From: Leisingera sp. ANG-Vp
GTDB lineage: Bacteria > Pseudomonadota > Alphaproteobacteria > Rhodobacterales > Rhodobacteraceae
Assembly: GCF_000813725.1 (NCBI RefSeq)
Contig: NZ_JWLD01000029.1
Span: forward strand, 1-32,376
DNA length: 32,376 bases
Reading direction: 5' to 3'
Shown here: positions 15,557 through 32,345 of the stretch, one piece after another
How the letters are laid out: every line of letters begins with the position of its first letter
Position numbering within the stretch: position 1 is the stretch's first letter
The notes under the pieces: model-generated
The model's database searches: none
What the model saw: the letters and a program-made list of their open reading frames with translations, nothing else
What the model was told of the DNA's origin: nothing
Translations under genes and position numbers: made by a program

Positions 15557-15699
15557 TGAGTTCTTGTATGCTTGCAGGACCGGATGGGTTCGTTTGGGAC
15601 GTTTTATGCAGCTTGAATGTGGAAGTGAGATCCAATGGATTTGACATGGGTCTCATGAGGCAGAGGCCGGGCTGCGCACGGCACGCTTGAAGCTGGCCA

Positions 15700-15975
15700 T
15701 CACGGCCGTTCGCCGGCAGCGGCCATGATCAGTCCCAGCAGCGCCGTAAAGAACGCCTTGCCAACCTGGCCCGAGCCAGAAAAAGCTGCAATGGCCGAAG
15801 GCTCTGCCGCCATCGGAGCGAGGTGCCTGGTCATGCGAAACAGCAACGCAACAGCCGGTGCAAAGACCATAAGAACGATGGCGCCGATGGTGCTGCCCGA
15901 GAAGGGCGCAATAGCTGCAACTGTCCGCGCCTTGCTTGATCTGCACTTTTGGGGGGTCGCCATTTTAGAGGTCAA
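15700..15975 (-). pseudogene. Fragment of a TctA-type tricarboxylate transporter membrane protein
   Basis: The minus-strand frame encodes about 90 residues resembling an internal stretch of TctA, the large membrane subunit of tripartite tricarboxylate transporters. It contains KARTVAAIAPFSGSTIGAI, then VLMVFAPAVALLF and KAFFTALLGLIMAAAGERP. These follow TctA order (the AAIGSF-AGT-IGAI-like helix, then LLGLxxAxxG). A complete TctA has about 500 residues with further helices on both sides, and none of that is found here. No TctB or TctC is nearby. The rest of the 15557-16108 gap holds no other gene that I can see. The identification is by motif memory only. Confidence 0.5.
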
Positions 15976-16108
15976 TGTCGGAAGCAGTGAATTCTAACCA
16001 GATCAACCCAAGTAGCATTCCTCCGGCAACCCACCTGATCAGGCAGTATAGCGGCTTGGCTGAGCCGGCCAAAGGCGGTCTTCGAACTGCTGATACAACC
16101 GAAGGAAC

Positions 16109-18142: not shown

Positions 18143-18354
18143 ATAGATCGCCCTGCATCAACCGCTGAACAGCAGAAGCCCGGCGGCCGGAACCAGTTGG
18201 TGCCGCGTCCTGATGGTGCCTGTACCGGCAGGCAGGTGATCCGCCTGTGCAGGGGCGTTCAGTCTGACGGGGAATTCTGCTGGCTCGCTGCCGTCACGGC
18301 TCAGCGGCTGATGCCTAAGCCGCTCAATGGGCTGCGTTTTTGAGTTGAGCTTTT

Positions 18355-18399
18355 ATGCAGTAAAATTACAGCACTTTACATGCAGTAATTTTACTGCAT
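18355..18399. promoter_or_regulatory. Two tandem palindromic operators in front of the ArsR-type gene
   Basis: A perfect palindrome, ATGCAGTAATTTTACTGCAT (18380-18399, two 9-base arms around TT), is preceded at 18355-18374 by a second copy matching 7 of 9 bases in its right arm. The centres are 25 bp apart. They lie 10-54 bases before the regulator start, so this is the likely autoregulatory site. Upstream, 18143-18354 holds no gene; a weak 7-bp hairpin (18303-18324) follows the flavoprotein. Confidence 0.8.
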
Positions 18400-18408
18400 A
18401 TTGGAGTC

Positions 18409-18717
18409 GTGAAAGATGACCAGCTCGACCTGATATTCAAGGCCCTATCCGACAGCACGCGCCGTCGCATCATCGACCGCCTGAGTAAACAGCCAGCTCA
18501 GTCGCTGTTCGAAGTGTGCGCCGCGTCGGTTGCTGAAGATGGGGTTGCGCTGTCCCGGCAAACGGTCTCCCAGCATCTGGCTGTTCTGGAGAAGGCCGGT
18601 CTAATCGAGATCGCGTGGAAGGGACGCACAAAGACGCATTCATTGAGCATCAGCGAAGATCATATCGTGGCCGCTTTGTGGCTCACAAACTACAAAGAAA
18701 GGGGATCCAAAACATGA
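18409..18717 (+). CDS. ArsR-family winged-helix transcriptional repressor
   Basis: This 102-residue regulator begins with the standard ArsR sequence DLIFKALSDSTRRRIIDRL and has a recognition helix in SRQTVSQHLAVLEKAGLI (about 49-66), followed by a beta wing (WKGRTKTHSLSI). It has no CxC metal-binding pair near the alpha-3 helix, so it is probably not a classic arsenic or metal sensor. The single cysteine (C38 region, FEVCAAS) may or may not matter. The start is a GTG with GGAG very close (two-base gap), which may limit translation. It almost certainly binds the two palindromes just upstream and controls itself and the overlapping VOC gene. The inducer is unknown. Confidence 0.88.
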   Translation: MKDDQLDLIFKALSDSTRRRIIDRLSKQPAQSLFEVCAASVAEDGVALSRQTVSQHLAVLEKAGLIEIAWKGRTKTHSLSISEDHIVAALWLTNYKERGSKT

Positions 18718-19115
18718 AAATCTACGTCACCAGCGTCTTTGTCGATGACCAGGATAAGGCCGAAAAATTCTATACCGAGGTTCTCGGATTTACCGTGAAA
18801 CACAACATCCCATTGGGAGATTTCCGTTGGCTGACGGTTGTGTCTAAGGAAGATCCGGAGGGGACTGAACTGCTGCTGGAACCCAGCGACCACCCAGCTG
18901 TCGGACCATACAAAGAAGCAATTGTCGCCGATGGTATTGCTGCTCATTCTTTTCAGGTGCAAGACCTTGATGCCGAGTGGAAGAAACTGACTGGTCGGGG
19001 GGTGACATTTGTTACTGAGCCGATGGATGCGGGAGCAGTGCACATGGCTGTTTTCGATGATACATGCGGAAACCTGATCCAGCTCATCCAGATGAAGGAT
19101 ATGGCATCTGCCTAA
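18714..19115 (+). CDS. VOC (glyoxalase/bleomycin-resistance fold) protein
   Basis: This 133-residue cytoplasmic protein has one VOC module: MKIYVTSVFVDDQDKAEKFYTEVLGF (strand-helix with the FY-LGF signature), WLTVVSKEDPEGTELLLEP, HSFQVQDLDAEW and VAVFDDTCGNLIQL-like closing strands. VOC proteins bind a metal and act as glyoxalases, dioxygenases, or drug and toxin binders; the exact activity cannot be told from fold alone. The ATG overlaps the ArsR stop (ATGA) and has GGGGATCC upstream, so it is co-translated with its repressor. ArsR-VOC pairs are common and often answer to a small organic compound. Nothing gene-like is seen between it and tetR (19116-19373). Confidence 0.85.
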   Translation: MKIYVTSVFVDDQDKAEKFYTEVLGFTVKHNIPLGDFRWLTVVSKEDPEGTELLLEPSDHPAVGPYKEAIVADGIAAHSFQVQDLDAEWKKLTGRGVTFVTEPMDAGAVHMAVFDDTCGNLIQLIQMKDMASA

Positions 19116-19373: not shown

Positions 19374-20030
19374 TTAACTGCCGGGTTTCTCCTGGAAAGC
19401 GTCCGCGTGACTAGGAAACAGCGTTTGAAGGAAATTCAGTGTCTGTGTCAGCGCCCCCTCACGGGTGTAGCTGTGCGGGAACAGGTGCAATTTCTGCCAA
19501 TACCCATCAGTCAGCGTATCAATCCAGCCACTGGCCAAGCTTGCCTTGCCGGAATCCTCCGGTGCTAGCTGCCGGCAAATGTCGCTGAGCATTCTGGACC
19601 TTTTTTCCTCAAACTCGCCGGTGATCTCGGCGTATTGCGGTACGAAGTTCTGCTCTCCGAAGAAGGCGAACCAAATGGCAAGTGAACTGGGGTTGCAGAT
19701 CTTTGGGCTAAAGTCAGCCTCGATGATAGTGCGAAGCCGGGCTGCGGGGGCTTCAGGCGACTTGTCGAGCGCTGCCTGCCAGTGGGCCTCGTAGGTCTGG
19801 TACTGATCCCGCAGCGCTTCGGTCAGAATGCCGGTCTTGGATTTGAAGTAGAAGACGGCAACCCCCTGCGAAAGCCCGGCCTCGTTGGCCACTGTCGCCA
19901 GGGTCGTCTTGGCCAGCCCGTTGGCCACAATCGACTTCAGGGTCGCATCGAGAATCTGCCGCCGCCGCTTGTCGGCGTTTTCCTTGCGTTCCTTGCGCGG
20001 CTTCCTGCCGCTGCCTTCCGATGCCGCCAT
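19374..20030 (-). CDS. TetR-family regulator (BetI-like) of the catabolic cluster
   Basis: This 218-residue DNA-binding regulator has a basic tail (GSGRKPRKERKENADKRRRQ), then the TetR helix-turn-helix (about 24-70: ILDATLKSIVANGLAKTTLA, TVANEAGLSQGVAVFYFKSK). Its C-terminal domain resembles the BetI group, whose best-known member responds to choline. I chose the ATG at 20030 over an upstream GTG at 20069 because family proteins start with a short basic tail and the longer version would add a hydrophobic stretch. It is transcribed divergently from the oxidoreductase operon across a gap holding the palindrome TTTGAGCGCTCAAA. The same core recurs at 28238, so I infer that it controls both promoter regions, most simply as a repressor relieved by the substrate. 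Confidence 0.88.
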   Translation of the reverse strand: MAASEGSGRKPRKERKENADKRRRQILDATLKSIVANGLAKTTLATVANEAGLSQGVAVFYFKSKTGILTEALRDQYQTYEAHWQAALDKSPEAPAARLRTIIEADFSPKICNPSSLAIWFAFFGEQNFVPQYAEITGEFEEKRSRMLSDICRQLAPEDSGKASLASGWIDTLTDGYWQKLHLFPHSYTREGALTQTLNFLQTLFPSHADAFQEKPGS

Positions 20031-20102
20031 GAGAATTCCAAAAAATACCAATTTTCTCCCTTGTTCCACAATTCGCTGCGCCTGTCAGCCGGATTATTTT
20101 TA

Positions 20103-20116
20103 TTTGAGCGCTCAAA
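20103..20116. promoter_or_regulatory. TetR operator candidate, copy 1
   Basis: TTTGAGCGCTCAAA is a perfect 14-bp palindrome in the tetR/oxidoreductase divergent region. A possible plus-strand promoter follows six bases later: TTTACG (20122-20127), 17 bp, then TAGGCT (20145-20150), with the ATG 32 bases further. The 12-bp core is identical to the site at 28238-28249. Confidence 0.75.
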
Positions 20117-20182
20117 AAAACTTTACGGCAAAAATCTTCTCCACTAGGCTCCGGTGGACCGCAGCCGAGTCAGGAGAATTTC

Positions 20183-21820
20183 ATGGGGCAGCACGACAGA
20201 TACGATGCCATCGTGGCCGGGGCCGGGCACAACGGGCTGACTGCGGCCTGCTATCTGGCCAAGGCCGGGCTGAAGGTTCTGGTGGTGGAAAAGAACGATT
20301 GGATCGGCGGTGCGGCGGTGAGCCGTTCGCTGCATGAGGGCTGGACCTACTCCAACTGCTCCTATGTCTGCTCGCTGCTGCGGCGCGAGATCGTGCGCGA
20401 CCTGGAGCTGCCGAAATACGGGCTGCAGGTAATCCCCTATGAAGGCGGCGCCAGCTTCAGCAGCGATGGCGGTTACTTTGCCTACATGTCGGACCATGAT
20501 GCCCTGCGCCGGGAGATAGCCCGCCACAGCGCCCATGACGCCGACGCTTATGACCGGTTCAGCCAGACGGTGATCCGCCAGTGCCGCTTTATCCGGCCCT
20601 TCCTGCTGCGCAACGCGCCGGACCCGACCTCGCTCAAGCCGCGCGACATCGGCGAGCTGCTGTTCCTGATCAAACAGGCGCACGGGCTGGGCAAGAAAGA
20701 GCTGGGCGAGACGCTGCGGTTCTGGTCGATGTCGATCGGCGATTTCCTTGACGAGCATTTCGAGAACGACCTGATCAAGGCCCATATCGCCGGAGCAGGC
20801 ATCATCGGCACCGGCCTGGGCGTCTATTCGCCAGGCACTGCCTATGTGCTGCTGCACCACTATATGGGTGACGTGGACGGCGCGATCGGCGCCTGGGGCT
20901 TTGCCCGCGGCGGTATGGGGGCGATCTCCAACGCGCTGGGCGCCTGTTTCGAGGAGGCCGGCGGCACCATCGTCACCGGCTCCGGCGTCGACCGTTTCCT
21001 GGTGGAAGGCGGCAAGGTGACCGGCGTTGCGCTGGACAATGGCGACGAGTACCGCGCCCCCATTGTCGCGTCGAACATGGACGTGAAACGCACCTTCCTG
21101 CAGCACACCGGCCAGCAGCATCTGCCCGATGACTTCGTGAAAGCCGTCAAACGGTTCAAGATCCGCGGCTCCTCGGGCAAGCTGAACATTGCCTTGGATG
21201 CACTGCCCGAGTTTCCGGCCGCCCCCAAAGGCGCGCCTTTCCTGCGCGGCGATCTGCATTGCGCCGAAAGCCTGAACGAGCTGGAACGCGCCTATGACGA
21301 CTGGAAGGAGGGGCGCTGGTCGCAGAACCCCTATTTCGACATGCTGATCCCCAGCCAGATCGATCCGACCATGGCGCCGCCGGGCAAGCACATGATGACC
21401 GTCTTTGTGCAATACGCGCCTTATGACCTTGAGGTCGGCGGCGTGCGCGCTGGCACTAATTGGAACGGCCAGACCCGCGGCGCCTTTGCCGACTGCGTCT
21501 TTGACAAGCTGGAGCAGGCCTGCCCCGACATCCGCAGCAAGACCGTGCACGCCGAGGTCCGCACACCTTGGGATATTGAGCAGGAAGTGAGCCTCACCGA
21601 AGGCAACATCTTCCAGGGCGAGCTGACCTTTGACCAGCTGCTCTTTAACCGCCCGGTGCCGGGCTATGCGCAATACGACACCCCGATTGACGGCATGTAT
21701 ATCGTCGGATCCTCGGCGCATCCGGGCGGAGGGGTGATGGCGGCGCCGGGCGCCAATGCGGCGCGGGAAATCCTGCGCAACATCGGGCGCGGCGGCAACA
21801 TGACCGGTTATGCGGCCTGA
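20183..21820 (+). CDS. FAD-dependent oxidoreductase, phytoene-desaturase/PYROXD2-like (first of pair)
   Basis: This 545-residue cytoplasmic flavoprotein has an N-terminal Rossmann motif YDAIVAGAGHNGLTAACYLA (residues 7-26, GAGHNG) and VVEKNDWIGGAA, the phytoene-desaturase-like middle (GARGGMG-type stretch FARGGMGAISNAL), and a C-terminal FAD-closing motif GMYIVGSSAHPGGGVMAAPG. Proteins of this group (human PYROXD2, bacterial CrtI relatives) oxidise C-C or C-N bonds, and most have unknown substrates. CAGGAG lies nine bases before the ATG. It is the first gene of a four-gene run under the TetR palindrome. Its presence with a GcvT-like protein and an aminotransferase points to amine or amino-acid oxidation, not carotenoid synthesis, since no carotenoid gene is nearby. 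Confidence 0.88.
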   Translation: MGQHDRYDAIVAGAGHNGLTAACYLAKAGLKVLVVEKNDWIGGAAVSRSLHEGWTYSNCSYVCSLLRREIVRDLELPKYGLQVIPYEGGASFSSDGGYFAYMSDHDALRREIARHSAHDADAYDRFSQTVIRQCRFIRPFLLRNAPDPTSLKPRDIGELLFLIKQAHGLGKKELGETLRFWSMSIGDFLDEHFENDLIKAHIAGAGIIGTGLGVYSPGTAYVLLHHYMGDVDGAIGAWGFARGGMGAISNALGACFEEAGGTIVTGSGVDRFLVEGGKVTGVALDNGDEYRAPIVASNMDVKRTFLQHTGQQHLPDDFVKAVKRFKIRGSSGKLNIALDALPEFPAAPKGAPFLRGDLHCAESLNELERAYDDWKEGRWSQNPYFDMLIPSQIDPTMAPPGKHMMTVFVQYAPYDLEVGGVRAGTNWNGQTRGAFADCVFDKLEQACPDIRSKTVHAEVRTPWDIEQEVSLTEGNIFQGELTFDQLLFNRPVPGYAQYDTPIDGMYIVGSSAHPGGGVMAAPGANAAREILRNIGRGGNMTGYAA

Positions 21821-21830
21821 GGAGCGGAAG

Positions 21831-23402
21831 ATGACCACAGCAACTTACGACGCAATTGTCATCGGCGCCGGCCACAATGGTCTGGCCGCGGCTGCGACCC
21901 TGGCCCGCAAGGGCAAATCGGTCTGCGTGATTGAAAAGAACAATACCGCCGGCGGCATGGCCCGCAACACCACGCTTGCGGGCGGCATCGAGGTGCCCGA
22001 GATTGCGCATCTGCTCTACAACCTGCATCCCAAGGTGAAAAAGGAGCTGGGACTGGGCACTTCCCGCGCGCCGCTGGAAGTACAGGAACTGCCCGCCGTT
22101 TCGCTGTCAGCAGACGGCAATCACGCGGTGATTCGAAATGGCAGGGCGGAGTTGCCGGACGGGCGCCCGCACCCGGAAGCAGAGCCCTTTGCCGAACTGA
22201 TGCGCCGCCTGACCCTGTTTGCGGATCTGCTGGGGCAGCTGTCTACAAAATCCCCGCCCTCGCTTGAGGGCGGTTTGACCAGCCTGGAAACGCTTACAGA
22301 ACTTGCTGGTCTGGCCAAGCTGGGGCTGGATCTGAAGCGGATGGGCAAGAAGGACATGCGCGAGTTCCTCCGCGTGCTCCTGTCCAACGCCTACGACCTG
22401 CTCCTGGACGATCTCGAAGACGGCCCGCTGGCCGGGGCGCTGGCGGCGGATGCGGTGCACGGCGCTTATGCCGGGCCGCGTTCCCCCGGAACTGTGTTTT
22501 CCCTGATGTACCGCCTGGGGCAGGGCGGCGGTGCGCAGCTGCCGATGGGCGGTATGGGCGCTGTCTCAGCCGCGTTTGAGAAGGCTGCCCGTGCTGCCGG
22601 AGCCGAAATCCGCACCGGCCTGGGCGTGGCCCGGGTACTGGTCGAAGGCGACCGCGCAGCAGGTGTGGTGCTGGAAGACGGGTCTGAATTGTCCGCCAGG
22701 ACGGTTCTAAGCAACACCGGCCCGATGCCCGCGATGATGCTGGCGGGGGCAGAGCATTACGACACCGAAATGGTGCGCCGGATGCGCAACCAGCGCTGCA
22801 AGGGCGCGGCGGCCAAGGTCAATCTGGTGCTGAGCGGCGCGCCGGAGTTCACCGGCCTCAGCCCGAAGCTTGCCGCAGGGCGGCTGCTGATTGCCCCCAG
22901 CGCAACCTATGTGGAGCGCGCTTTCAACCCGGCCAAGTATGGCGAACTGCCGGAAAACCCGGTGATCGAGGCCGTGCTGCCCAGCTTGTCTGACCCGGCT
23001 ATGACGGCTGGCGGGCAGCATGTGCTGTCGGCCGTGGTCAGCTCGGTTCCTTACGGGCTGGAGAGCGGCTGGGACGAGGCAGCCCGCAGCAAACTGGCGT
23101 CCGTCACACTCGCCGCTCTGGAGAAATACGCCCCCGGCATCGGCGCGTTGGTCACGGAGGCACAAGTGCTCAGCCCGGCCTGCATCGAAGCCCGCACAGG
23201 TGCTCCCGGCGGCCATTGGCATCATGCCGAGATGGGCATCGACCAGATCCTCACGGTGCGGCCCGCCAACGGCATGGCGCAGTACCGCTTCGGACCAGAG
23301 GGCTATTACCTTTGCGGCGCGGGTGCCCATCCGGGCGGCGACGTGACCGGGCTGGCGGGGCGCAACAGCGCATTGCAGCTTCTGAAAGACGGGGTTCTCT
23401 GA
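21831..23402 (+). CDS. FAD-dependent oxidoreductase, PYROXD2-like (second of pair)
   Basis: This 523-residue flavoprotein is a clear paralogue of the gene before it: YDAIVIGAGHNGLAAAATLA (6-25, GAGHNG at 12-17), VIEKNNTAGGMA, PMGGMGAVSAAFEKAA, and a C-terminal GYYLCGAGAHPGGDVTGLAG. I chose the ATG at 21831 because GAGGAG lies a few bases upstream, inside what would otherwise be the first codons of a longer frame starting at 21810. It begins 10 bp after the upstream stop, and its own stop overlaps the next ATG by one base. Two adjacent paralogues suggest either successive oxidation steps on one substrate or a heterodimer. The sequences differ too much for a recent duplication. Confidence 0.88.
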   Translation: MTTATYDAIVIGAGHNGLAAAATLARKGKSVCVIEKNNTAGGMARNTTLAGGIEVPEIAHLLYNLHPKVKKELGLGTSRAPLEVQELPAVSLSADGNHAVIRNGRAELPDGRPHPEAEPFAELMRRLTLFADLLGQLSTKSPPSLEGGLTSLETLTELAGLAKLGLDLKRMGKKDMREFLRVLLSNAYDLLLDDLEDGPLAGALAADAVHGAYAGPRSPGTVFSLMYRLGQGGGAQLPMGGMGAVSAAFEKAARAAGAEIRTGLGVARVLVEGDRAAGVVLEDGSELSARTVLSNTGPMPAMMLAGAEHYDTEMVRRMRNQRCKGAAAKVNLVLSGAPEFTGLSPKLAAGRLLIAPSATYVERAFNPAKYGELPENPVIEAVLPSLSDPAMTAGGQHVLSAVVSSVPYGLESGWDEAARSKLASVTLAALEKYAPGIGALVTEAQVLSPACIEARTGAPGGHWHHAEMGIDQILTVRPANGMAQYRFGPEGYYLCGAGAHPGGDVTGLAGRNSALQLLKDGVL

Positions 23403-24580
23403 TGACCAAACATGTTCCTATCGGCCTGATCGAAACCCCGTTCCATGCGCGGCTTGAGATGCTCAGTACGGCCAAGAGCTGGACCAACTGGGCCGGTTTC
23501 ATCTCGCCCGCGGCTCTGGACACGGTGGAGTTTGAATACTTCGCCATCCGCAACCAGTGCACCCTGTTCGACATCTCGCCGATGCACAAATACCGCATCA
23601 CCGGGCCGGATGCCTTGAAAGTGGTGAACCGCCTGGTCACCCGCAACGCTGCCAAGCTGCGTGACGGGCGGGTCGGCTATGTTCTGTGGTGCGATGAAGA
23701 GGGCATGGTGATCGACGACGGCACCTTGTTCCGCTTCTCCGAAACCGACTTCCGCCTGTGCTGCCAGGAGCCGATGTACACGTGGCTGCTGGACACCGCC
23801 TGGGGCTTTGACGCCGAAATCACCGACGAAAGCCACGGTATTGCCGCCCTCTCGCTGCAAGGGCCGACCTCGTTTTCACTGCTGCAGGACGCCGGACTGG
23901 GCGCCGTGGCTGATATGAAGCCCTTCGACTGGAGCGAGATCGAGCCGGACCTGTGGGTTTCGCGCACCGGATTCACCGGCGATCTGGGATATGAGCTTTG
24001 GGTGCCCAACGAAAAGGCGCTGGAGCTGTGGGACCGTCTGTGGGCCGCAGGCGGCCATTGGGGCCTGAAGGCCATCGGCTTTGAGGCGCTCAACATCTGC
24101 CGGATCGAGGCCGGGTTCATTGCCGCGGGCTTTGATTTCCAGCCGGTGCATACCGCGATGCGCTTGGGCCGCGGCCGCAGCCCGCTGGAGCTGGGCTTTG
24201 CCAAGATGGTGGATTTCACCAAGGGCCACTTCAACGGCCGCCGTGCGCTGCTGAAACAGCAGCAAACCGGCCTGCGCTACCACCTGCGCAAAATTGATAT
24301 CGGCGGCTTCAAACCCGCGGACGGCGCGCTGATCTACCACAAGAAAAAGAAAGAGGTGGGGCATGTGACCTCCGGCGTTTGGTCCCCCACCACCAAGCGC
24401 AATATCGCGCTGGCCGAGTTCAAGGCGCCTTACGCCGAGGGCATCACCGATGATCTCTGGGCCGAAGTCTACGTCAACGAGGAAGGCCAATGGGACAGGC
24501 GCCTGGTGCCGGTTTCCATCGAAGACAAGCCCTTCTTCATCCACAGCCGCGCGCGGGCAACCCCGCCGCGCCCGTTCTAA
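23402..24580 (+). CDS. GcvT-like aminomethyltransferase family protein
   Basis: This 392-residue cytoplasmic protein is related to the glycine-cleavage T protein and to the THF domains of dimethylglycine and sarcosine dehydrogenases. The folate-binding fold shows FDISPMHKYRITGPDA (56-71), the family aspartate in GMVIDDGTLFR (D105/D106), SLQGPTS and FTGDLGYELWVP, then the C-terminal barrel with FTKGHFNGRRALL and VGHVTSGVWSPT. The expected role is to pass a one-carbon unit, or the formaldehyde level of a demethylated amine, to tetrahydrofolate. It is not fused to a dehydrogenase, so a flavoprotein from the same cluster probably works with it. It has no H-protein or P-protein neighbours, so it is not the normal glycine cleavage operon. 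The longer frame starting at 23216 overlaps the preceding gene; the ATG at 23402 is coupled to that stop. Confidence 0.88.
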   Translation: MTKHVPIGLIETPFHARLEMLSTAKSWTNWAGFISPAALDTVEFEYFAIRNQCTLFDISPMHKYRITGPDALKVVNRLVTRNAAKLRDGRVGYVLWCDEEGMVIDDGTLFRFSETDFRLCCQEPMYTWLLDTAWGFDAEITDESHGIAALSLQGPTSFSLLQDAGLGAVADMKPFDWSEIEPDLWVSRTGFTGDLGYELWVPNEKALELWDRLWAAGGHWGLKAIGFEALNICRIEAGFIAAGFDFQPVHTAMRLGRGRSPLELGFAKMVDFTKGHFNGRRALLKQQQTGLRYHLRKIDIGGFKPADGALIYHKKKKEVGHVTSGVWSPTTKRNIALAEFKAPYAEGITDDLWAEVYVNEEGQWDRRLVPVSIEDKPFFIHSRARATPPRPF

Positions 24581-24598
24581 TCCGTAACAGGTGCTCCA

Positions 24599-25978
24599 AT
24601 GACCAAGATGACCCCGAACAGCTTTACCAACGAACCGAGCCCGGACACCCTGCACGAGTGGGACCGCACCCATCAGCTGCACCCGTGGATGGCCATGGAC
24701 GACTGGCGCGGCTACGACAACATGCTGATGGAAAGCGCGGACGGCATCCATCTGTGGGACGCCTCCGGCAAGCGCTATATCGACGGCCCGGGCGGCATGT
24801 GGTGCACCCAGATCGGCTATGGCCGCCGGGAAATGGCCGATGCCATTGCCGAACAGGTGATGAAGCTGCCCTACACGTCTCCTTTCACCAACACCACCGA
24901 ACCTTCGGCAGTGCTGGCAAGGAAGATCGCCGAAATGGCGCCGGGCGATCTGAACAACGTCTTCTTCACCACCGGCGGCTCCACCGCGGTGGATACGGCG
25001 CTGCGCACCATGCAGTACATGAACAACCGCCGCGGCAAGCCGGAAAAGAAGAAGATCCTTGCCCGCGAAAAAGGCTACCATGGCTCCACCTATCTGGCCC
25101 ATTCGGTAACCGGCAAGGAGCGCGACAAAAGCCATTTCGATTTCGAAACCCGGCTGGTGCATTTCCTGCCCGACGTGAACCCCTACCGCCGCCCCGCAGG
25201 CATGAGCGTCGAGGACTGGTGCGATGCCAAGGTAGCGGACCTTGAAACCGCCATTGCCGAGATCGGCGCGGACAACATCGGCGCCTTCATAGCCGAACCG
25301 ATCCTTTCCTCCGGCGGCGTCATCGTTCCGGCGCCCGGCTATCACAAACGGACCTGGGAGCTGTGCCGGGCCAATGACATCCTCTATATTTCCGACGAGG
25401 TGGTGACCGGTTTCGGCCGCCTAGGCCATTGGTTCGCCTCCGAAGAGGTCTTTGGCATCCAGCCCGACATGATCACCTGCGCCAAGGGGCTCACCTCCGG
25501 CTATCTGCCGCTGGGCGCCTGCATCATCTCGGACCGGGTGATGGAGCAGATGAGCCATCTGGGCTCCCCGTCCTCCTACACCAATGGATACACTTACTCC
25601 GGCCACCCAGTGTCCTGCGTTGCGGCACTGAAGAACATCGAGATCATCGAGCGTGAAGGCATTCTGGAGCATGTCCGCGCCGTCACCCCGCATTTCCAGT
25701 CCCGCCTGCGCGACCTGATGAAGTTCGACATCGTCGGCGACGCCCGCGGCGAGGGACTGCTGGGCTGCATCGAATGCCAGGCCGAGGATTTGGAGGCCGA
25801 GCGCAAGCTGGGCTCGATGATCGATGCGGCTTGCGAGGAGATGGGCCTGATCGTGCGCCCGCTGATCAACATGGCGGTGTTCTCGCCGCCGCTGGTCATC
25901 ACCCTCGAGCAGATTGACGAGATGTTCGACATCCTGGAGCGCGCCATCCAGCAGGTGGAGGCGCAGCTGGCTGCCTAA
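24599..25978 (+). CDS. Class III (omega-amino acid type) PLP aminotransferase
   Basis: This 459-residue cytoplasmic transaminase has the family motifs in order: YIDGPGGMWCTQIGYG (60-75), FFTTGGSTAVDTALR (122-136), YHGSTY (160-165), ISDEVVTGFGR with the PLP-pairing D266 (264-274), and the Schiff-base lysine K296 in DMITCAKGLTSGYLPLG. Length and motifs match the putrescine/taurine/beta-alanine:pyruvate transaminase group. It probably removes a terminal amino group from the substrate or an intermediate, using pyruvate or 2-oxoglutarate. It starts 18 bp after the GcvT-like gene with GGTGC as a weak ribosome binding site. A strong terminator lies 47 bp past its stop, closing the four-gene operon. 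Confidence 0.9.
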   Translation: MTKMTPNSFTNEPSPDTLHEWDRTHQLHPWMAMDDWRGYDNMLMESADGIHLWDASGKRYIDGPGGMWCTQIGYGRREMADAIAEQVMKLPYTSPFTNTTEPSAVLARKIAEMAPGDLNNVFFTTGGSTAVDTALRTMQYMNNRRGKPEKKKILAREKGYHGSTYLAHSVTGKERDKSHFDFETRLVHFLPDVNPYRRPAGMSVEDWCDAKVADLETAIAEIGADNIGAFIAEPILSSGGVIVPAPGYHKRTWELCRANDILYISDEVVTGFGRLGHWFASEEVFGIQPDMITCAKGLTSGYLPLGACIISDRVMEQMSHLGSPSSYTNGYTYSGHPVSCVAALKNIEIIEREGILEHVRAVTPHFQSRLRDLMKFDIVGDARGEGLLGCIECQAEDLEAERKLGSMIDAACEEMGLIVRPLINMAVFSPPLVITLEQIDEMFDILERAIQQVEAQLAA

Positions 25979-26024
25979 AGCTGGAGGGGGTGGCACCAGG
26001 ACTCCCGTCACCCTTCCCCGAACT

Positions 26025-26062
26025 GGCGGGCGCAACCGGTGGTCCCGGTGCCCGCCTTTTTT
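26025..26062 (+). terminator. Terminator of the four-gene oxidoreductase operon
   Basis: GGCGGGC (26025-26031) pairs with GCCCGCC (26050-26056), an inner ACCGG/CCGGT stem extends it, and TTTTTT follows at 26057-26062. It lies 46 bases after the aminotransferase stop. Confidence 0.9.
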
Positions 26063-26099
26063 GTGCATAGTTTCCGGGGTGCTCTCTTTCAATGACACG

Positions 26100-26143
26100 A
26101 AAAAGCCAGCCGTCCCGCGGTATGTCCTGCGGGAGGGCTGGCT
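26100..26143 (-). terminator. Terminator of the TMADH-like gene
   Basis: On the minus strand, AGCCAGCC (26136-26143) pairs with GGCTGGCT (26104-26111), with an inner TCCCGC/GCGGGA stem, and is followed by TTTTT. It starts 13 bases after the flavoprotein stop. It stands back to back with the plus-strand terminator, insulating the two converging genes. Confidence 0.88.
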
Positions 26144-26155
26144 GAGCTTGCGTAT

Positions 26156-28195
26156 CTAAACTGTGTGCTCGCGGCGGCCGTATTTCTTCGCCAGATCCAC
26201 GTCCTGCCCGAGGTCCATCGCGGCGCGGTAGCCGCTTTGCACAGCCGCGGCGATGATGTGGGGCGCTTCGGCATCGCCGATGCGGGACACCGATTTGATC
26301 CCGGCCACCTGCAGCCCGTCTCCCATTGCCTTCAGCCCATCATAGAGCCCCAGCACCGGCAGACGGCGGGTGAGAGGGATGATGGCGTCGCAGGCCAGCG
26401 AACTGCGGGCGCCCGAGAACATGCAGGCCAGCACCGCTTCGCCTTTTTGCGCGGCCACCAGCGTCCGGTTGGGCACCACGGCCACACCTGCCTCGATCAG
26501 CGCGGCGTTGGACTGGTAGACCTCGGTGGTCCATTGGCCCCAGTCGCAGGGCCGGCCCGCAGGCGTGACCAGAGTGACCCGGTGCCCCTCCTTGCGCAGC
26601 TGCAGCGCCAGGACCGAGCCGAGGTAGTAGTGGTCGTCGTCATAGATCACCACGTGATCCGCATTGAGCCTCTCGCTGTTCAGAACGGTTTCGGCGGAGA
26701 CGATCATGCCGGGGGCTTCCTCCTCCAGCCCGGTATCGGAGTGGCGCCCGATGGTGTCCGTGGCCCAGACCGCCCCGGTGGCGGCGATCACATGCGAAAC
26801 ACCGAGGTCCAGCACATCGGCTGCTTCCAGCGGGCTTTCCGGGTAAACCTCGACGTTGGACAGCTTTTCGATCTGCCCCACGCGCCAGTCACGCACACGG
26901 GCCCATTCGCTCATGCCTGGCAGGCGGGATTCACGGGAAACACGCCCGCCCAATGTCCTGCTTGCCTCGGCCAGCATCACCGGGTGGCCGCGTTCGCCCA
27001 GGACCCGGGCGGCCTCCAGTCCGGCAGGGCCAGCACCGACAACCAGCACTTTCTCGGGCCTTTCACTGCGCCCGGCCTTCTCGGGGTGCCAGCCCTGGCG
27101 CCATTCCTCTCCCATGGTGGGGTTCTGGGTGCAGCGCAGCGGCACCCCCAGCGAGTCATGCGCATAGCAGATGTTGCAGCCTATGCATTCGCGGATGTCC
27201 TCGCTGCGGCCTTCCTCGATCTTCTTTGGCAGGAACGGATCGGCAATCGAAGGCCGCGCTGCGCCGATCAGGTCCTGGCCGCCCTGGCGGATCACCTGCG
27301 CCATGGTGTCGGGCGAAGTATAGCGGCCGACCGCCACCACGGGTTTTGAAGTCAGCGCCTTCGCCTGGGCAATGCTGTCCGAGAAGGAAGCTTCCTTTAC
27401 AAACCGGCTTGCCCCCATTTCAACGCCATAGTCCGGCACCACCAAATCCCATAGATCCGGCAGGTCTGCCAGCATGGCAAAGGCGTCATAGCTTTCGGCA
27501 TCTCCCAGCCCGACGCTGAAACGGGTGGCGACGGCGCATTTGTGACCGACGGCCTCCTTGGTTTCCTCGATCAGTTCGCGCACCAGCCGAACCCGGTTCT
27601 CTAATGAGCCGCCGTATTCGTCGCTGCGGGTGTTGTTCACCGGGTCCAGGAACTCGGACAGAAGATAGCCGTGGGTGGCGTAGACATACACAATGTCAAA
27701 CCCCGCCTCGACGGCTCGCAAGGCGGCATCGCGGTGCCATTTGCGGATGTTGCGGATATCCTCGCGGTCGATCTTGCGCGCCTGGCCGGGGTGCAGAACG
27801 GTGGCATCCGTCTGCGGCCGGTTGCGCATCCCCAAAGGGGCCAGCCGGGTGCCGAAATTGGTTACCATGCCACCGCCGATCCACAGCTCCACCCCGGCCA
27901 GCGCACCGTGTTCATGCACCGCGTCCGTCATCAGCCGGTTGGCGCGGATGTCATCCGCGTCCCACAGTGCTGCATAGGGGTAATAGTCATTGTCCGAGGT
28001 CGGATGGATCGAGCAGAACTCGGTGTTCACAACCCCCCAGCCGCCTTCCGCCTTCATCCCCCGCATTGCCGCCACCGTGCGCGGCCGCCGCCAGCCCATG
28101 CCGGCGCAATGCGGCACCTGGTAAAACCGGTTCTTCGTCTCCACGGGGCCGATTTTCAGCGGCTGAAACAGGATGTCATGGCGGGGATCGCGCAT
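26156..28195 (-). CDS. Trimethylamine-dehydrogenase-like FMN/4Fe-4S/FAD flavoprotein with altered substrate site
   Basis: This 679-residue cytoplasmic flavoprotein matches trimethylamine dehydrogenase throughout: RDPRHDILFQPLKIGP at the start, FYQVPHC with C30 at the position of the cysteine that links FMN, YVYATHGYL (Y172, H175), EYGGSLENR, cluster cysteines C337-x2-C340-x2-C343-x11-C355, and an FAD/ADP-binding VLVVGAGPAGLEAARVLG domain (about 383-400). From memory of the family, the aromatic bowl that holds trimethylammonium (Tyr60, Trp264, Trp355) is replaced: F60, no tryptophan in the DYGVEMGASRF segment, and D347. The enzyme therefore probably demethylates or oxidises a different amine. 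The ATG at 28195 (AAGGG upstream) is chosen because the longer frame starts inside the palindromic operator. It is divergent from the binding-protein gene. Confidence 0.9.
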   Translation of the reverse strand: MRDPRHDILFQPLKIGPVETKNRFYQVPHCAGMGWRRPRTVAAMRGMKAEGGWGVVNTEFCSIHPTSDNDYYPYAALWDADDIRANRLMTDAVHEHGALAGVELWIGGGMVTNFGTRLAPLGMRNRPQTDATVLHPGQARKIDREDIRNIRKWHRDAALRAVEAGFDIVYVYATHGYLLSEFLDPVNNTRSDEYGGSLENRVRLVRELIEETKEAVGHKCAVATRFSVGLGDAESYDAFAMLADLPDLWDLVVPDYGVEMGASRFVKEASFSDSIAQAKALTSKPVVAVGRYTSPDTMAQVIRQGGQDLIGAARPSIADPFLPKKIEEGRSEDIRECIGCNICYAHDSLGVPLRCTQNPTMGEEWRQGWHPEKAGRSERPEKVLVVGAGPAGLEAARVLGERGHPVMLAEASRTLGGRVSRESRLPGMSEWARVRDWRVGQIEKLSNVEVYPESPLEAADVLDLGVSHVIAATGAVWATDTIGRHSDTGLEEEAPGMIVSAETVLNSERLNADHVVIYDDDHYYLGSVLALQLRKEGHRVTLVTPAGRPCDWGQWTTEVYQSNAALIEAGVAVVPNRTLVAAQKGEAVLACMFSGARSSLACDAIIPLTRRLPVLGLYDGLKAMGDGLQVAGIKSVSRIGDAEAPHIIAAAVQSGYRAAMDLGQDVDLAKKYGRREHTV

Positions 28196-28236
28196 TGATG
28201 TGAACCCTTTGCTAGGCAGATTGGATCTAAAGTTTG

Positions 28237-28265
28237 ATTGAGCGCTCAAATAATTCTTGTGTCAA
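28237..28265 (-). promoter_or_regulatory. TetR operator candidate, copy 2, inside a minus-strand promoter
   Basis: TTGAGCGCTCAA (28238-28249) is a perfect 12-bp palindrome identical to the core at 20104-20115. On the minus strand it lies between TTGACA (28260-28265) and CTCAAT (28237-28242), spaced 17 bp, so a bound protein would block that promoter. Plus-strand hexamers TTGTGT (28257-28262) and TAACCT (28280-28285) could serve the binding-protein gene. Confidence 0.75.
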
Positions 28266-28361
28266 GCCGGATTCCCTCCTAACCTTTTTCTATCACGGCC
28301 GGACCTGCGCCGGAGGAGGCAACAGGCAGGAAAACAGGGCCGCGGCAACAGGGAGACTTTC

Positions 28362-29423
28362 ATGAAAATTTTGAAAACAGCCACGGCGCTTGGCACGGTT
28401 CTGTCTTTGCAGGCAGGGGCAGCCATGGCCGCCGATGCAGAGCTGACCGTGTTCGACTGGGCGGGCTACGAGGACCCTGAGTTTTTCTCTGCCTATATCG
28501 AACAACATGGCGACGGCCCCACCTTCGCCTTTTTCGGAGATGAGGAGGAAGCTTTCCAAAAACTGCGCTCGGGGTTCCAGGCTGATGTCGTGCATCCCTG
28601 CTCGCAGTCGGTGCCAAAGTGGATCGAGGCCGGGCTGCTGGCGCCGCTTGATACCTCCAGAATTGAGCGCTGGGACGAGCTGGAACCCAGCTTCCGCGAT
28701 ATCGCGGCCTACACCAAGGACGGGCAGAGCTACTTCATCCCGGCCGATTGGGGCAACACCGCGGTTACCTACCACACCGAACACCTGAGCGACGCAGATG
28801 TCGCCACTCTGCAGGCCTTTGCGGATCCCAAGCACCAGGGCCGGATCTCGATTGGCGACAATGTTGACGACGCCTATGCGCTGGGTTTCCTGGCCACAGG
28901 CGTCACCGACTGGACCAGCGCAACCGACGCGCAGTTCCAGGCGGCCTCAGCATTCCTGCGGCAGGTGCACCAGAACGTGCGGACCTATTGGTCGGACGGG
29001 GCTTCGCTGGCGCAGCTGATGCAAAGCGGCGAGGTGTATCTCGCCTGGGCGTGGAACGAGACCTATTCGACGATGACCTATGAAGGCCATCCGATTGCGG
29101 TGAACCGTGACACTGCGGAAGGTGCCTCAAGCTGGGTGTGCGGATACTCGAAGCTCGCCAACGCGCCAGGTTCTGAAGACAAATTCTACGACTTCATCAA
29201 CGCCTGGCTGGAGCCGAAAACAGCCAATTACCTGGTCACCCAATGGGGCTATGGCCATGGCAATGCCAAGGCCATGGCCGAGATGAGCCCCGGCGATCTG
29301 GCGGCTGTTGGGCTTGAGAGCAACGAGAAGCTTCGGGAAAAGACGCTTTGGCAGGGGCCTGTTCCTGCGGCGCTGCGGGAAAAGATGATTGCCGAGTTCG
29401 AGCTGATCAAGGCTGGCTTCTGA
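28362..29423 (+). CDS. Periplasmic solute-binding protein, PotD/PotF-like
   Basis: This 353-residue exported binding protein of an ABC importer has a signal peptide of about 23 residues (ending GAAMAAD). The mature protein starts LTVFDWAGYEDPEF, like the first strand of spermidine/putrescine-binding proteins, and shares SYFIPADWGNTAVTY and a W-containing ligand region (LAWAWNETY, ASSWVCGY). Compared from memory with PotF, the acidic ligand contacts D39, D247 and D278 seem to be G, N and C here, so a plain polyamine is doubtful. GGGAG lies about seven bases before the ATG at 28362; an earlier in-frame start at 28257 has no signal-like N terminus. The gene is divergent from the TMADH-like gene and convergent with its likely permease/ATPase operon. 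Confidence 0.9.
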   Translation: MKILKTATALGTVLSLQAGAAMAADAELTVFDWAGYEDPEFFSAYIEQHGDGPTFAFFGDEEEAFQKLRSGFQADVVHPCSQSVPKWIEAGLLAPLDTSRIERWDELEPSFRDIAAYTKDGQSYFIPADWGNTAVTYHTEHLSDADVATLQAFADPKHQGRISIGDNVDDAYALGFLATGVTDWTSATDAQFQAASAFLRQVHQNVRTYWSDGASLAQLMQSGEVYLAWAWNETYSTMTYEGHPIAVNRDTAEGASSWVCGYSKLANAPGSEDKFYDFINAWLEPKTANYLVTQWGYGHGNAKAMAEMSPGDLAAVGLESNEKLREKTLWQGPVPAALREKMIAEFELIKAGF

Positions 29424-29445
29424 GCTCTGGGCAAGTCCTTATGAA

Positions 29446-29477
29446 AAGAACGCCCCGCCAATCGGCGGGGCGTTCTT
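29446..29477. terminator. Strong bidirectional terminator
   Basis: A perfect 14-bp stem (AAGAACGCCCCGCC / GGCGGGGCGTTCTT) with loop AATC ends in T-rich sequence on the plus strand (TTCTTT) and has A-rich flank (AAAA) for the minus strand. It separates the converging binding-protein and ATPase genes. Confidence 0.9.
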
Positions 29478-29525
29478 CTTTGCTGATCAGGGCCGGAAAA
29501 ACAGCTGGGGCAATGCCCCGGCCGC

Positions 29526-30629
29526 TTATTGGAACAGAACGATTGAATCCGCGCCCCAGCCAACCGGCACTTTGCTGCCTGCAGGTGCGATGGAACGGCC
29601 GGCCGTGTTGCGCATCGAAATGGTCACATCCTCGCCGTGGCCGGGCAGGCGCACACTGTAATAGGTCATGTCGCCGTAATAGGCGGTGCTGGTCACAGTG
29701 CCTGTTGTGACCTGTTCGGTCTGTTCGCTGCCTTCGAACAGAATGGTCAGCATTTCAGGCCGGATGCCGACAGTATCAATGTTCTGCAGGTCCAGCCCCT
29801 CGGGAACCAGAGATGAGGGCATTTCGATATTGCCCAAAGCAGGAATATCAAGCGCCAGATGGCCGTTCATACCGCCCATGGCTTTGGCGTCGAGAAAATT
29901 CATCACACCAATGAAGGACGCAATGCGCTTGTCTGCCGGGCGGCGGTACAGCTCTTCGGGGGTGGCCAGCTGGGCAATCCGGCCGTCGAACATCACCGCA
30001 ATCCGGTCGGACATGGTCAGGGCCTCCTCCTGGTCGTGGGTCACCAGGATGAAGGTGATGCCAAGCTTCTGCTGCAGCTGGCGCAGCTCCACCTGCATCT
30101 GGTCGCGCAGCTTCTTGTCGAGCGCCGACAACGGCTCGTCCAGCAGCACCACCTTGGGCTTCATCACCAGCGCCCGGGCCAGCGCCACCCGCTGCCGCTG
30201 GCCGCCGGACAGCTCATGCGCGGCGCGGGACCCCAGCCCGCCCAGGTCCACCATCTGCAGCGCCTGCTCCACCTCGCGGGCAATCTCGGCCTTGGGCAGC
30301 TTGCGGGTCTTCAGGCCGTAACCGACGTTTTCGGCGACGCTCAGATGCGGGAAGATCGCATAGGACTGAAACACCATATTGGTGGGGCGGCGGTTGGCAG
30401 GCACGCCTGCCATGTCCTGGCCTCCAATCATGATGGTGCCATCGGTCGGCGTCTCGAACCCGGCGATCATCCGCAGCAGGGTGGTCTTGCCGCAGCCTGA
30501 TGGCCCCAGCAGCGAAAAGAACTCGCCTTCGTTTATGGTTGCGTCGATACCTTTCAGAGCCTGGAAGGTGCCGAAATTCTTGGTGACGCCCGCAAGGTCG
30601 ATAATGGGCTGAGGGGATGGGCTGGCCAT
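29526..30629 (-). CDS. ABC importer ATPase, PotA/PotG-like
   Basis: This 367-residue cytoplasmic ATPase powers the adjacent permeases. Motifs: Walker A GPSGCGKT (42-49), Q-loop Q88 in VFQSYAIFPH, signature LSGGQRQR (140-147), Walker B VVLLDEP (160-166), H-loop H198 in LVTHDQEEA, and a C-terminal TOBE-like regulatory domain (about 285-365) usual in spermidine/putrescine-type ATPases. The ATG at 30629 begins one base after the upstream permease stop and has GGAGG eleven bases before it; a TTG at 30638 would sit too close to that site. It is last in the operon permease-permease-ATPase on the minus strand. Confidence 0.93.
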   Translation of the reverse strand: MASPSPQPIIDLAGVTKNFGTFQALKGIDATINEGEFFSLLGPSGCGKTTLLRMIAGFETPTDGTIMIGGQDMAGVPANRRPTNMVFQSYAIFPHLSVAENVGYGLKTRKLPKAEIAREVEQALQMVDLGGLGSRAAHELSGGQRQRVALARALVMKPKVVLLDEPLSALDKKLRDQMQVELRQLQQKLGITFILVTHDQEEALTMSDRIAVMFDGRIAQLATPEELYRRPADKRIASFIGVMNFLDAKAMGGMNGHLALDIPALGNIEMPSSLVPEGLDLQNIDTVGIRPEMLTILFEGSEQTEQVTTGTVTSTAYYGDMTYYSVRLPGHGEDVTISMRNTAGRSIAPAGSKVPVGWGADSIVLFQ

Positions 30630-30630
30630 G

Positions 30631-31464
30631 TCAGGCAAATCCTCCGGTGGCTGAAGCTTCGATACCCTGTTTCCGGGCGGCGCGGCGGCGGAACCATTCG
30701 GCCAGGATCAGGAGCAGGACGGACAGGGCCAGCAGGATGGTCCCCAGCGCCATCACCGACGGCAGCTTGGTGGGGAAGCGCAGCTGGCTCCAGATGTAGA
30801 CGGGCAGGGTGACTTCGGTGCCGGTCAGGAAGAAGGCGATAATGAACTCATCCAGCGAGATGGTGAAGGTGATCAGCAGGCTGGACACCACGCCGGGCAT
30901 CACCAAGGGCAGTACAATGCGGCGGAAGGTGCCCCAGCGGCTTTCGCCCAGGTCATAAGAGGCTTCCTCCAGGCTGAGGTCCAGTCCCTGAAAGGCTGAG
31001 TTCAGAATGGCGATGGCAAAGGGTGTGCAGATCAGCACATGGCCCAGCACCACGGTCACCAGCGACAGCGGCATGCCCAGCTGCATCAGCAGGACCAGCA
31101 GTGCAACAGCCACAATGATTTCCGGCAGCACCAGCGGCAGCATGATAAAACTCATCATGCTGCGTTTGAGCGGAAACCTGTAACGGGCTGCGGCCCGCGC
31201 CGCACAGGCGCCGAGCATGGTGCTCAGCACGGCTGAAGACAGGCCAACGATCAGCGAGTTGCGCACGGCCCCGTGCAGCGCCTCGGTTTCCCAAAGCACG
31301 CCGAACCATTTGCTAGTGAAGCCGGACAGCGGAAAGGAGATCACCGTGGCGTCATTGAAGGCGAACATCGGCAGCAGGATGACCGGCGCGTAGAGAAACA
31401 CCATGTAGGCAACGGCGTAAACTGCCAGCCACTTGGCTGAGAAAAGCTGAAGCCAGGATTTCAT
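30631..31464 (-). CDS. ABC importer permease, PotC/PotI-like
   Basis: This 277-residue inner-membrane subunit has about six hydrophobic helices, starting near residues 13-35. The cytoplasmic EAA loop that docks on the ATPase reads EASYDLGESRWGTFRRIVLPLVMPG (about 165-190), followed by the typical SLDEFIIAFFLTGTEVTLPVYIW segment of PotC/PotI proteins. The C terminus is Arg-rich. Its ATG overlaps the preceding permease stop by four bases, so the two are coupled. It forms the channel together with the other permease. Confidence 0.93.
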   Translation of the reverse strand: MKSWLQLFSAKWLAVYAVAYMVFLYAPVILLPMFAFNDATVISFPLSGFTSKWFGVLWETEALHGAVRNSLIVGLSSAVLSTMLGACAARAAARYRFPLKRSMMSFIMLPLVLPEIIVAVALLVLLMQLGMPLSLVTVVLGHVLICTPFAIAILNSAFQGLDLSLEEASYDLGESRWGTFRRIVLPLVMPGVVSSLLITFTISLDEFIIAFFLTGTEVTLPVYIWSQLRFPTKLPSVMALGTILLALSVLLLILAEWFRRRAARKQGIEASATGGFA

Positions 31465-32318
31465 TGCACTTTGCCTCCGAACCGTTTGCCAAGCAGGAAA
31501 ATGACGGCACTGATTGCTGCGACTATGGCCATCGAGGAGATTGCCAGTGCTGCACCAAGCGGGGCGTTGTTCGCCTTGCCGAATTGGATCTGGATCATGT
31601 TGGCGATCATCAGCCCGTCGGTGCCGCCGACCAGCTTCGGCGTGATGAAATCACCGATTGTGGGGATCAGCACGATCAGAGTGGATGCAACAACACCGGG
31701 CATCGCCAGCGGCAGGGTGATCCGGAAGAACCGCCGCACCGGCCCGTCGCCGAGGTCTTCGGCGGCCTCCAGCAGCGAGCGGTCGATCTTCTCCAGCGCC
31801 ACAAAGATCGGCAGGATCGCAAAGGGCGCCCAGGCATGCGCCAGGGTCAGAACCACGGCGTTGGCGTTGTACAGAAGGAAGGTCAGCGGCTCATCGATGA
31901 CGCCCAGCCCCAGAAGCGCCGTGTTCAGCACGCCGTTATAGCCCAGGATCACTTTCCACAGGAACACCCGCAGCAGATAGCTGGTCCAGAACGGCACCGT
32001 GATCAGGAACAGCCACAGCGCCTTGCGGCTCTTGACGTGGAACGACAGGTAATAGGCAATCGGAAAAGCCAGCAGCACGGTGACCGCCGTGACGATCAGC
32101 GAAATCGCCAGCGAGCGCAGCACCAGCGTCCTGTAGATCGGTTTGCTCCAGGCTTCGCGGTAATTGTCCAGCGTCAGCGTGGTGTCGAGATCCAGATAAT
32201 TCTGGGTCCAGAAACTGAAGGTCACCACCATGGCCAGCGGCGCAGCCAGCAGCAGCAGCGAATAGAGCAGCGTCGGGCTGATCAATGCGAGGCCCTGGCG
32301 CCTCTCTCCTGTTAACAT
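31461..32318 (-). CDS. ABC importer permease, PotB/PotH-like
   Basis: This 285-residue inner-membrane subunit has about six helices. Visible family marks: SLLLLAAPLAMVVTFSFW near the N terminus, PFWTSYLLRVFLWKVILGYNGVLN in the periplasmic/membrane middle, the EAA loop EAAEDLGDGPVRRFFRITLPLAMPG and the following PTIGDFITPKLVGG, typical of PotB/PotH. I chose the ATG at 32318 because GGAGGAG lies nine bases upstream; a GTG at 32345 would put that site inside the gene. It is the first gene of the transport operon visible here; the promoter is at or beyond the right edge. Confidence 0.92.
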   Translation of the reverse strand: MLTGERRQGLALISPTLLYSLLLLAAPLAMVVTFSFWTQNYLDLDTTLTLDNYREAWSKPIYRTLVLRSLAISLIVTAVTVLLAFPIAYYLSFHVKSRKALWLFLITVPFWTSYLLRVFLWKVILGYNGVLNTALLGLGVIDEPLTFLLYNANAVVLTLAHAWAPFAILPIFVALEKIDRSLLEAAEDLGDGPVRRFFRITLPLAMPGVVASTLIVLIPTIGDFITPKLVGGTDGLMIANMIQIQFGKANNAPLGAALAISSMAIVAAISAVIFLLGKRFGGKVQ

Positions 32319-32345
32319 TCCTGGCTCCTCCTGGCCGGTATTCAC

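Follow-up and report, generated by a model that had tools for sequence, protein, structure and literature searches.

The window analysed here is one whole contig (C66; NZ_JWLD01000029.1, 32,376 nucleotides) of the 5.15 Mb genome of Leisingera sp. ANG-Vp, in which genes were called from open reading frames (ORFs) combined with Pfam and NCBIfam scans. Between positions 19374 and 32345 it carries ten genes, namely a TetR-family regulator and nine catabolic or transport genes. The regulator (19374..20069, minus strand, with a BetI-type C-terminal domain, PF13977, and a possible later in-frame ATG) is followed by a tight plus-strand operon. This operon encodes two paralogous FAD oxidoreductases of the CrtI/PYROXD2/amine-oxidase group, PyrA (20183..21820) and PyrB (21810..23402, starting at the ATG at 21810 or 21831), then a stand-alone GcvT-like aminomethyltransferase predicted to bind tetrahydrofolate (THF; 23402..24580) and a class III aminotransferase (24599..25978). 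The GcvT ATG overlaps the PyrB stop codon by one base (TGATG) and the aminotransferase gene starts 18 bases past GcvT. OYE2, a flavoprotein of the trimethylamine dehydrogenase (TMADH)/histamine dehydrogenase type, is encoded on the minus strand (26156..28195). The remaining genes specify an importer, with a PotD-superfamily solute-binding protein (28362..29423, plus strand) and, on the minus strand, an ATP-binding cassette (ABC) transporter ATPase that is PotA-like with a TOBE domain (29526..30638), a PotC-like permease (30631..31464) and a PotB-like permease (31461..32345).

The locus extends beyond the window, whose last 20 bases are the first 20 of contig C74. There it continues with a Rieske oxygenase gene (C74:21-1262, minus strand) and an MttB homologue (C74:1343-2884, plus strand), and the same order, Rieske then MttB after PotB, was also seen in related genomes. 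A sequence-only reading of the window had proposed the region from TetR to PotB as a candidate catabolic unit for a nitrogenous, probably N-methylated compound. Its gene set was confirmed as ten genes forming one unit, but the Rieske and MttB genes, the operator described below and the changed ligand residues of the binding protein had escaped it. We judge, with a probability of about 0.6, that the extended locus is a single TetR-repressed regulon through which a small methylated amine, probably a trimethylammonium compound, is taken up, fully demethylated at nitrogen step by step and deaminated.

The first line of evidence is a palindrome, a candidate operator, found at three promoters. It lies between TetR and PyrA (20103..20116, TTTGAGCGCTCAAA), between OYE2 and the binding protein gene (28237..28250, ATTGAGCGCTCAAA) and between the Rieske gene and the MttB homologue (C74:1269-1282). 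Its core TTGAGCGCTCAA occurs exactly three times in the 5.15 Mb genome (none for a reversed-pattern control), at C66:20104, C66:28238 and C74:1270. All three exact sites sit in divergent promoters of the locus and no exact match was found elsewhere. When the 14-mer was searched genome-wide with up to 2 mismatches, only these three of the 12 sites recovered had at most 1 mismatch. Since the third site, at the Rieske/MttB promoter, lies beyond the window, the regulon is larger than the set first proposed. We infer that TetR binds the palindrome. Three promoters that share a locus-specific candidate operator argue against independent expression of the parts of the locus.

The operator was also found in relatives, with up to 2 mismatches in 39/55 TetR-side gaps and in 39 of the 41 gaps of window-like and Roseovarius/Ruegeria-like loci (exceptions L024 and L027). 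It recurs there before further locus genes, Rieske genes among them. The exact 12-mer was present in 14 of 21 genomes of the window's genus. Seven of these, own included, are the ones among the 21 that have the Rieske gene (E≤1e-60), three (G402, G403 and G410) have decayed loci, and three others (G398, G399 and G408) have sites with similar flanks and no adjoining locus gene; the site of the remaining genome, G401, differs from the latter.

We then compared 60 loci (36 named, 20 further and 4 plasmid records), whose counts are partly non-independent since L079 and L112 are probably one replicon, L022, L147 and L181 one locus, and L076 and L169 one locus. PyrA, PyrB and GcvT were contiguous and co-oriented in 58 of the 60, the contig ending before PyrA in the other two (L017, L031), so that their order is conserved far more strictly than chance would allow. 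Accessory genes were counted in the 52 loci whose flanks reached at least 5.5 kb to the left and to the right. A Pot-type importer was found in 49 (not in L033, L043 or L093), a class III aminotransferase in 50 (not in L033 or L085) and a further demethylase-type gene (Rieske, OYE, MttB, PhyH or dimethylglycine dehydrogenase, DMGDH) in 51 (not in L016). The aminotransferase beside the triplet was of the AT3 subtype, after GcvT, in 44/60 loci and GntE-like, before PyrA, in 9/60. A gene for a class I S-adenosylmethionine (SAM)-dependent methyltransferase accompanied 36/52 loci (39/60 overall, among them many of L014-L094, and L112). A lack of conservation as a unit would have refuted the sequence-only reading; the unit is conserved in near relatives and the core triplet more widely.

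A family-wide search gave matches in 39/394 genomes at E≤1e-90, and PyrA homologues occurred at E≤1e-170 in 17/385 genomes of the class and 11/398 of the phylum, all alphaproteobacterial (own genome included in each count). PyrB adjoined PyrA in 25/25 loci fetched from the class- and phylum-wide searches, and the triplet was present in 12/12 distant loci examined with enlarged flanks. Among the named Leisingera loci, GcvT is 91-94% identical to that of the window. Every gene from TetR through PotB, then Rieske and MttB, is common to the Leisingera loci L009, L012 and L013. At a threshold of 35% identity across 60% of the length, no ORF cluster to the left of TetR links any of these three to another or to the rest of the 36, and it is therefore the locus, not its neighbourhood, that is conserved.

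The genes around the triplet vary from one group of loci to another. OYE2 occurs together with a Rieske gene and MttB in L009-L013; within the stretch, Heliomarina (L020) and Albibacillus (L040) show no OYE2 and have three Rieske genes; and Ruegeria L035-L039 and L042 have a DMGDH-type gene with a 54% OYE2. A PhyH-type oxygenase was found in 9/60 loci, Roseovarius types among them. Clade III loci (L076-L085) carry two Rieske genes and a PotF-type binding protein in 10/10, a GntE-like aminotransferase in 8/10 and a DMSP-lyase-family cupin in 9/10. Rhizobium and Shinella plasmids carry TetR, the triplet, the importer, the aminotransferase and a Rieske gene. The interchangeable parts come mostly from families that include N-demethylases, and the demethylation reading rests in large part on this. 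In passing, the cupin (PF16867, scanned in L077) follows the importer in 9/10 of L076-L085 and in L112, in several cases with an Amidohydro_3 protein.

A number of observations weigh against a single regulon. The reversed-pattern control gave 6 genome sites for the 14-mer at up to 2 mismatches, against 12 for the operator, and at 3 mismatches the window alone held 2 sites for a chance mean of 1.46, which is not above chance; the operator argument therefore rests on exact matches, placement and conservation. The operator was absent from 16/55 gaps, comprising all 14 of clade III and Rhizobium/Shinella plus L024 and L027. TetR of the clade III, Rhizobium and Shinella loci is only 30-38% identical, and no convincing alternative palindrome was found in their TetR-side gaps. 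In the enlarged distant loci, importer and binding protein were present in 6/12 (partial in L174 and L179), with no importer gene in L176, L177, L182 and L183, and a class III aminotransferase in 8/12, with none within the stretch in L174, L177, L182 and L183. Because these genes are missing there, the triplet may serve other substrates in distant relatives. In the window's own genus, G402, G403 and G410 keep TetR, the operator and the aminotransferase, with PyrA, PyrB and GcvT lost or reduced to remnants and no importer found within about 10 kb. In these three genomes the locus is being lost piece by piece. The aminotransferase, which survives there alone under the TetR site, thus has some independent use, and its survival fits an end-product primary amine that also arises elsewhere.

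Such modularity raises the question of two separate catabolic sets lying side by side, PyrA-PyrB-GcvT-aminotransferase in one and importer-OYE2-Rieske-MttB in the other. The Ruegeria loci L035-L039 and L042, where triplet and aminotransferase have different neighbours, would fit this, as would distant triplets without an importer and the three genomes that keep TetR and aminotransferase only. So would the presence, close by in two related genomes, of a second Rieske-OYE2-like-Pot module that lacks PyrAB. However, the same operator stands at three promoters with no exact genome match elsewhere, and both halves recur together, with changed order, from Roseobacter-type loci to Rhizobium/Shinella plasmids. 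We therefore regard two independent sets as distinctly improbable. The second module, in L104 and L105, lies beside the MttB gene and consists of Rieske, OYE2-like (48-49%), Pot importer and TetR genes, with no PyrA, PyrB or GcvT. The decayed loci of the three genomes that keep only TetR, the operator and the aminotransferase are L143, L144 and L145, with PyrA/GcvT remnants in two of the three.

The core of the proposed regulon is the triplet. PyrA and PyrB, 31% identical to one another, match CrtI/CrtO- and amine-oxidase-type models and score below the cut-off of each of their 25 best NCBIfam models; 'PYROXD2-like' is used for them as a label. An AlphaFold2 model of PyrA (mean pLDDT 83.5) has the CrtI/amine-oxidase fold, with the carotenoid desaturase 4rep as best PDB match, followed by 3ka7, CrtI 4dgk and a Rab-GDI; monoamine, cyclohexylamine and nicotine oxidases rank lower. 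GcvT belongs to PF01571 (GCV_T; 186.9 bits, gathering threshold 25.6) and falls below the glycine-cleavage GcvT cut-off (TIGR00528, 147 bits vs 235.85). As a separate protein of ~390 residues it likewise lies far below the SoxA-type alpha subunit model (TIGR01372, 132.5 bits vs 1164), and it matches best, among NCBIfam models, the C-terminal portion of that for TMAO demethylase. The DD motif is kept in 10 aligned family members. With 42 GCV_T matches genome-wide, a lone stand-alone GcvT is unremarkable by itself, and it is the fixed place after PyrA/PyrB that is remarkable. The family formed one clade apart from 8 of the genome's 42 GcvT-domain places (22 rows, support 100/99, unrooted). Together with the TGATG overlap, this clade points to a partnership of GcvT with PyrB.

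We put at about even odds the more specific proposal that PyrA, PyrB and GcvT constitute a new three-component, THF-linked alphaproteobacterial N-demethylase, in which a CrtI/PYROXD2-fold pair replaces DAO-fold subunits. It would combine with importers and with exchangeable enzymes for the first demethylation (Rieske, MttB, TMADH-like or 2-oxoglutarate oxygenase) in degrading a methylated amine. DAO-fold subunits serve sarcosine oxidase and dimethylglycine dehydrogenase, and the CrtI-type family is known mainly for carotenoid desaturation.

The desaturase-like fold could also suggest an N-methylated heterocycle (pyridinium or pyrroline) as substrate. PyrA and PyrB would then desaturate or oxidise the ring, GcvT would demethylate in a redox-neutral way, as DmdA does, and the opened product would go to the aminotransferase. 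The modelled fold of PyrA is compatible with this, a carotenoid desaturase being its nearest match and amine and nicotine oxidases ranking lower, and GcvT does match DmdA, weakly (131 bits, cut-off 410). Against it, no ring-opening hydrolase was recognised among ten annotated accessory gene clusters, and the TGATG overlap and GcvT clade point to PyrB as partner. We consider a heterocyclic substrate improbable. Homarine in particular was rejected, since its catabolism is reported to involve Mgd (a citing passage in PMC13390433) and Mgd was not among the ORFs scanned.

The nature of the imported compound was approached through the binding protein. All four importer proteins have the Pot family as best match. 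We take PotD to hold its ligand through the carboxylates E36, D168, E171 and D257 and a set of aromatic positions; a literature check on these residues found nothing. In 35/35 aligned sequences five of the six aromatic positions (W34, Y37, W229, W255 and Y293) are kept, and E36 is Gly, D257 is Cys and E171 is Asp; D168 is replaced by Asn, Ser, Ala or Gly. Since this pattern persists in clade II binding proteins only 33-36% identical to that of the window, the same changed pocket has been kept. As judged from these residues, it would suit a mono-cationic methylated amine better than a polyamine, three of the four PotD carboxylates being lost. The position of PotD Y85, occupied by Gln (33 sequences) or Ser (2), counts against this view of the pocket.

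A substrate of the N-methylated polyamine or diamine kind, imported by a PotD-type system, transaminated at its free end in SpuC-like fashion and demethylated at the other end by OYE2, PyrAB and GcvT, was also weighed. The importer falls in the polyamine superfamily, with an ATPase that scores above the cut-off of the polyamine-transporter subfamily potA (TIGR01187, 366.7 vs 355.6 bits), a result unfavourable to a small methylated amine. Putrescine aminotransferase is among the solved relatives of the class III aminotransferase, which itself scores above the NF005447 (PRK07036) cut-off (665.1 vs 618 bits). One relative, L180, has a PuuC-like aldehyde dehydrogenase gene (557.5 bits, cut-off 850) between GcvT and the aminotransferase, as expected if the latter yields an aldehyde. 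However, the window's binding protein, unlike PotABCD systems, lacks most PotD carboxylates (Gly and Cys replacing two of them invariantly, in 35/35) and scores 78.4 bits with the PotD model NF007048, whose cut-off is 582. In addition, Rieske proteins of the GbcA type and MttB-family proteins typically go with quaternary amines. A polyamine substrate thus seems unlikely.

OYE2 bears on the same question. It aligns nearly end to end with histamine dehydrogenases and, like the trimethylamine and histamine dehydrogenases 3k30, 6de6 and 1djn, has the flavin-link Cys and the Fe-S cysteines; this Cys and the three Fe-S cysteines examined do not vary among 19/19 sequences. We take these to be the hallmarks of the TMADH family, the former for 6-S-cysteinyl FMN and the latter, a CxxCxxC motif, for the 4Fe-4S cluster. 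The positions of Tyr169 and His172 are also invariant in the 19. The aromatic bowl that we presume to mark trimethylamine dehydrogenase proper (Tyr60/Trp264/Trp355; roles of the other TMADH and histamine dehydrogenase residues are likewise assumed) is not preserved, with Tyr (11 sequences) or Phe (8) at Tyr60 and Tyr at Trp264 in 19/19; the position of Asp267 has Glu. At Trp355 there is Asp in 18/19 and Glu in one, the Asp being that of histamine dehydrogenase and so favouring a polyamine or diamine.

Returning to a trimethylammonium compound, the Rieske and MttB proteins are those proposed to open the pathway. The only NCBIfam match of the Rieske protein at 1e-30 is GbcA (NF058607), at 130.6 bits for a cut-off of 670. 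The MttB homologue falls below the pyrrolysine-type model (TIGR02369, 221.2 vs 525 bits) and within the wider family PF06253. Neither a Rieske reductase nor a corrinoid protein was found among the ORFs scanned, no genome search having been aimed at them, and this too tells against the proposed pathway.

The closest known logic is that of glycine betaine degradation by gbcAB-dgcAB-soxBDAG in Pseudomonas aeruginosa and Vibrio natriegens, where, in the part of PMC12093977 available, a Rieske oxygenase is followed by a demethylase of the NADH:flavin oxidoreductase type and a THF-linked sarcosine oxidase. Here, two CrtI-type paralogues and a separate GcvT replace SoxBDAG, and the locus further includes a Pot-type ABC importer, a TetR regulator and a class III aminotransferase. 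That the locus is a rearranged textbook glycine betaine/dimethylglycine/sarcosine pathway would be consistent with this shared logic, with GbcA as sole match of the Rieske protein and with BetI as best match of TetR (105.6 bits, TIGR03384 cut-off 201.3; 103.4 bits, NF001978 cut-off 118). However, the Rieske score is far below the GbcA cut-off, neither soxBDAG nor dgcB was among the ORFs scanned, and importer and transaminase lie outside that route. Ruegeria pomeroyi, moreover, demethylates glycine betaine by MtgBCD, according to an excerpt of PMC12478193. We consider the textbook pathway very improbable. The sequence-only reading, one catabolic unit that matches no textbook pathway, is supported. 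The GbcA, SoxA-family, GcvT, BetI and PotD cut-offs are all missed.

Two other systems invite comparison. MtgBCD likewise relies on an MttB-superfamily methyltransferase (PMC12478193, in part); here no corrinoid-protein gene was found among the scanned ORFs and the window's MetF-type genes have no operator. SAR11_1303/1304, in the portion of PMC3160333 available, is a stand-alone aminomethyltransferase with no assigned substrate beside a predicted monomeric sarcosine oxidase, and thus resembles the present arrangement in having a separate GcvT-like protein adjoin an amine-oxidising flavoprotein; here the partner is a CrtI-type pair. In the available part of PMC12093977, a pepD-hypothetical pair adjoins dgcAB; in L173 (13594-14931) a small ORF with a short cupin match and an M19 dipeptidase follow GcvT and recall this pair.

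We infer the substrate class, every reaction and their order as follows. The PotD-type ABC importer would bring the methylated amine into the cell, and the Rieske oxygenase and/or the MttB homologue would remove the first methyl of the quaternary amine. The TMADH-like flavoprotein OYE2 would remove the second. PyrA and PyrB would oxidise the last N-methyl group and GcvT would pass the one-carbon unit to THF, the three forming a three-part counterpart of sarcosine oxidase. Finally, the class III aminotransferase would turn R-CH2-NH2 into the aldehyde. As a catabolic regulon the locus is of a familiar sort; its build is unusual, its core strongly conserved and its boundary defined by the operator.

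The gene set is shared by marine and soil bacteria and is apparently undescribed. We found neither a description of the cluster nor a close characterised homologous cluster, which would have refuted the sequence-only reading, in the full-text literature searched, whose partial coverage leaves most subscription papers and preprints outside. If PyrA/PyrB/GcvT is a demethylase, one-carbon metabolism would be a new role for the CrtI-type family, and there would be a model for stand-alone 'aminomethyltransferase' genes without an assigned substrate. An importer, a regulator whose candidate operator has been mapped and a candidate enzyme module come together in this locus. Methylated amines are described as a significant component of the dissolved organic nitrogen of the sea (PMC13390433, in part). 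Most roseobacter importers lack a verified substrate, and an excerpt of PMC10130141 lists one for 18 of 126 organic-carbon importers in R. pomeroyi.

Upstream of TetR (14016-19115), the window carries a MetV-like (DUF5981) and MetF-like pair, OYE1 (a flavoprotein of the OYE/2,4-dienoyl-CoA reductase type) and a VOC protein. These were rejected as parts of the locus, since no operator within 3 mismatches was found there and they were not found in the other loci compared. The Shinella locus has an OYE1-type flavoprotein 49% identical to OYE1 of the window, and no OYE2 was detected in it. Further left (84-12928) lie genes that are apparently unrelated to the locus: one for a large protein of the cadherin/RTX type, one for a response regulator next to a kinase-like ORF, and one for the copper-resistance protein CopB, accompanied by a multicopper-oxidase-like ORF.

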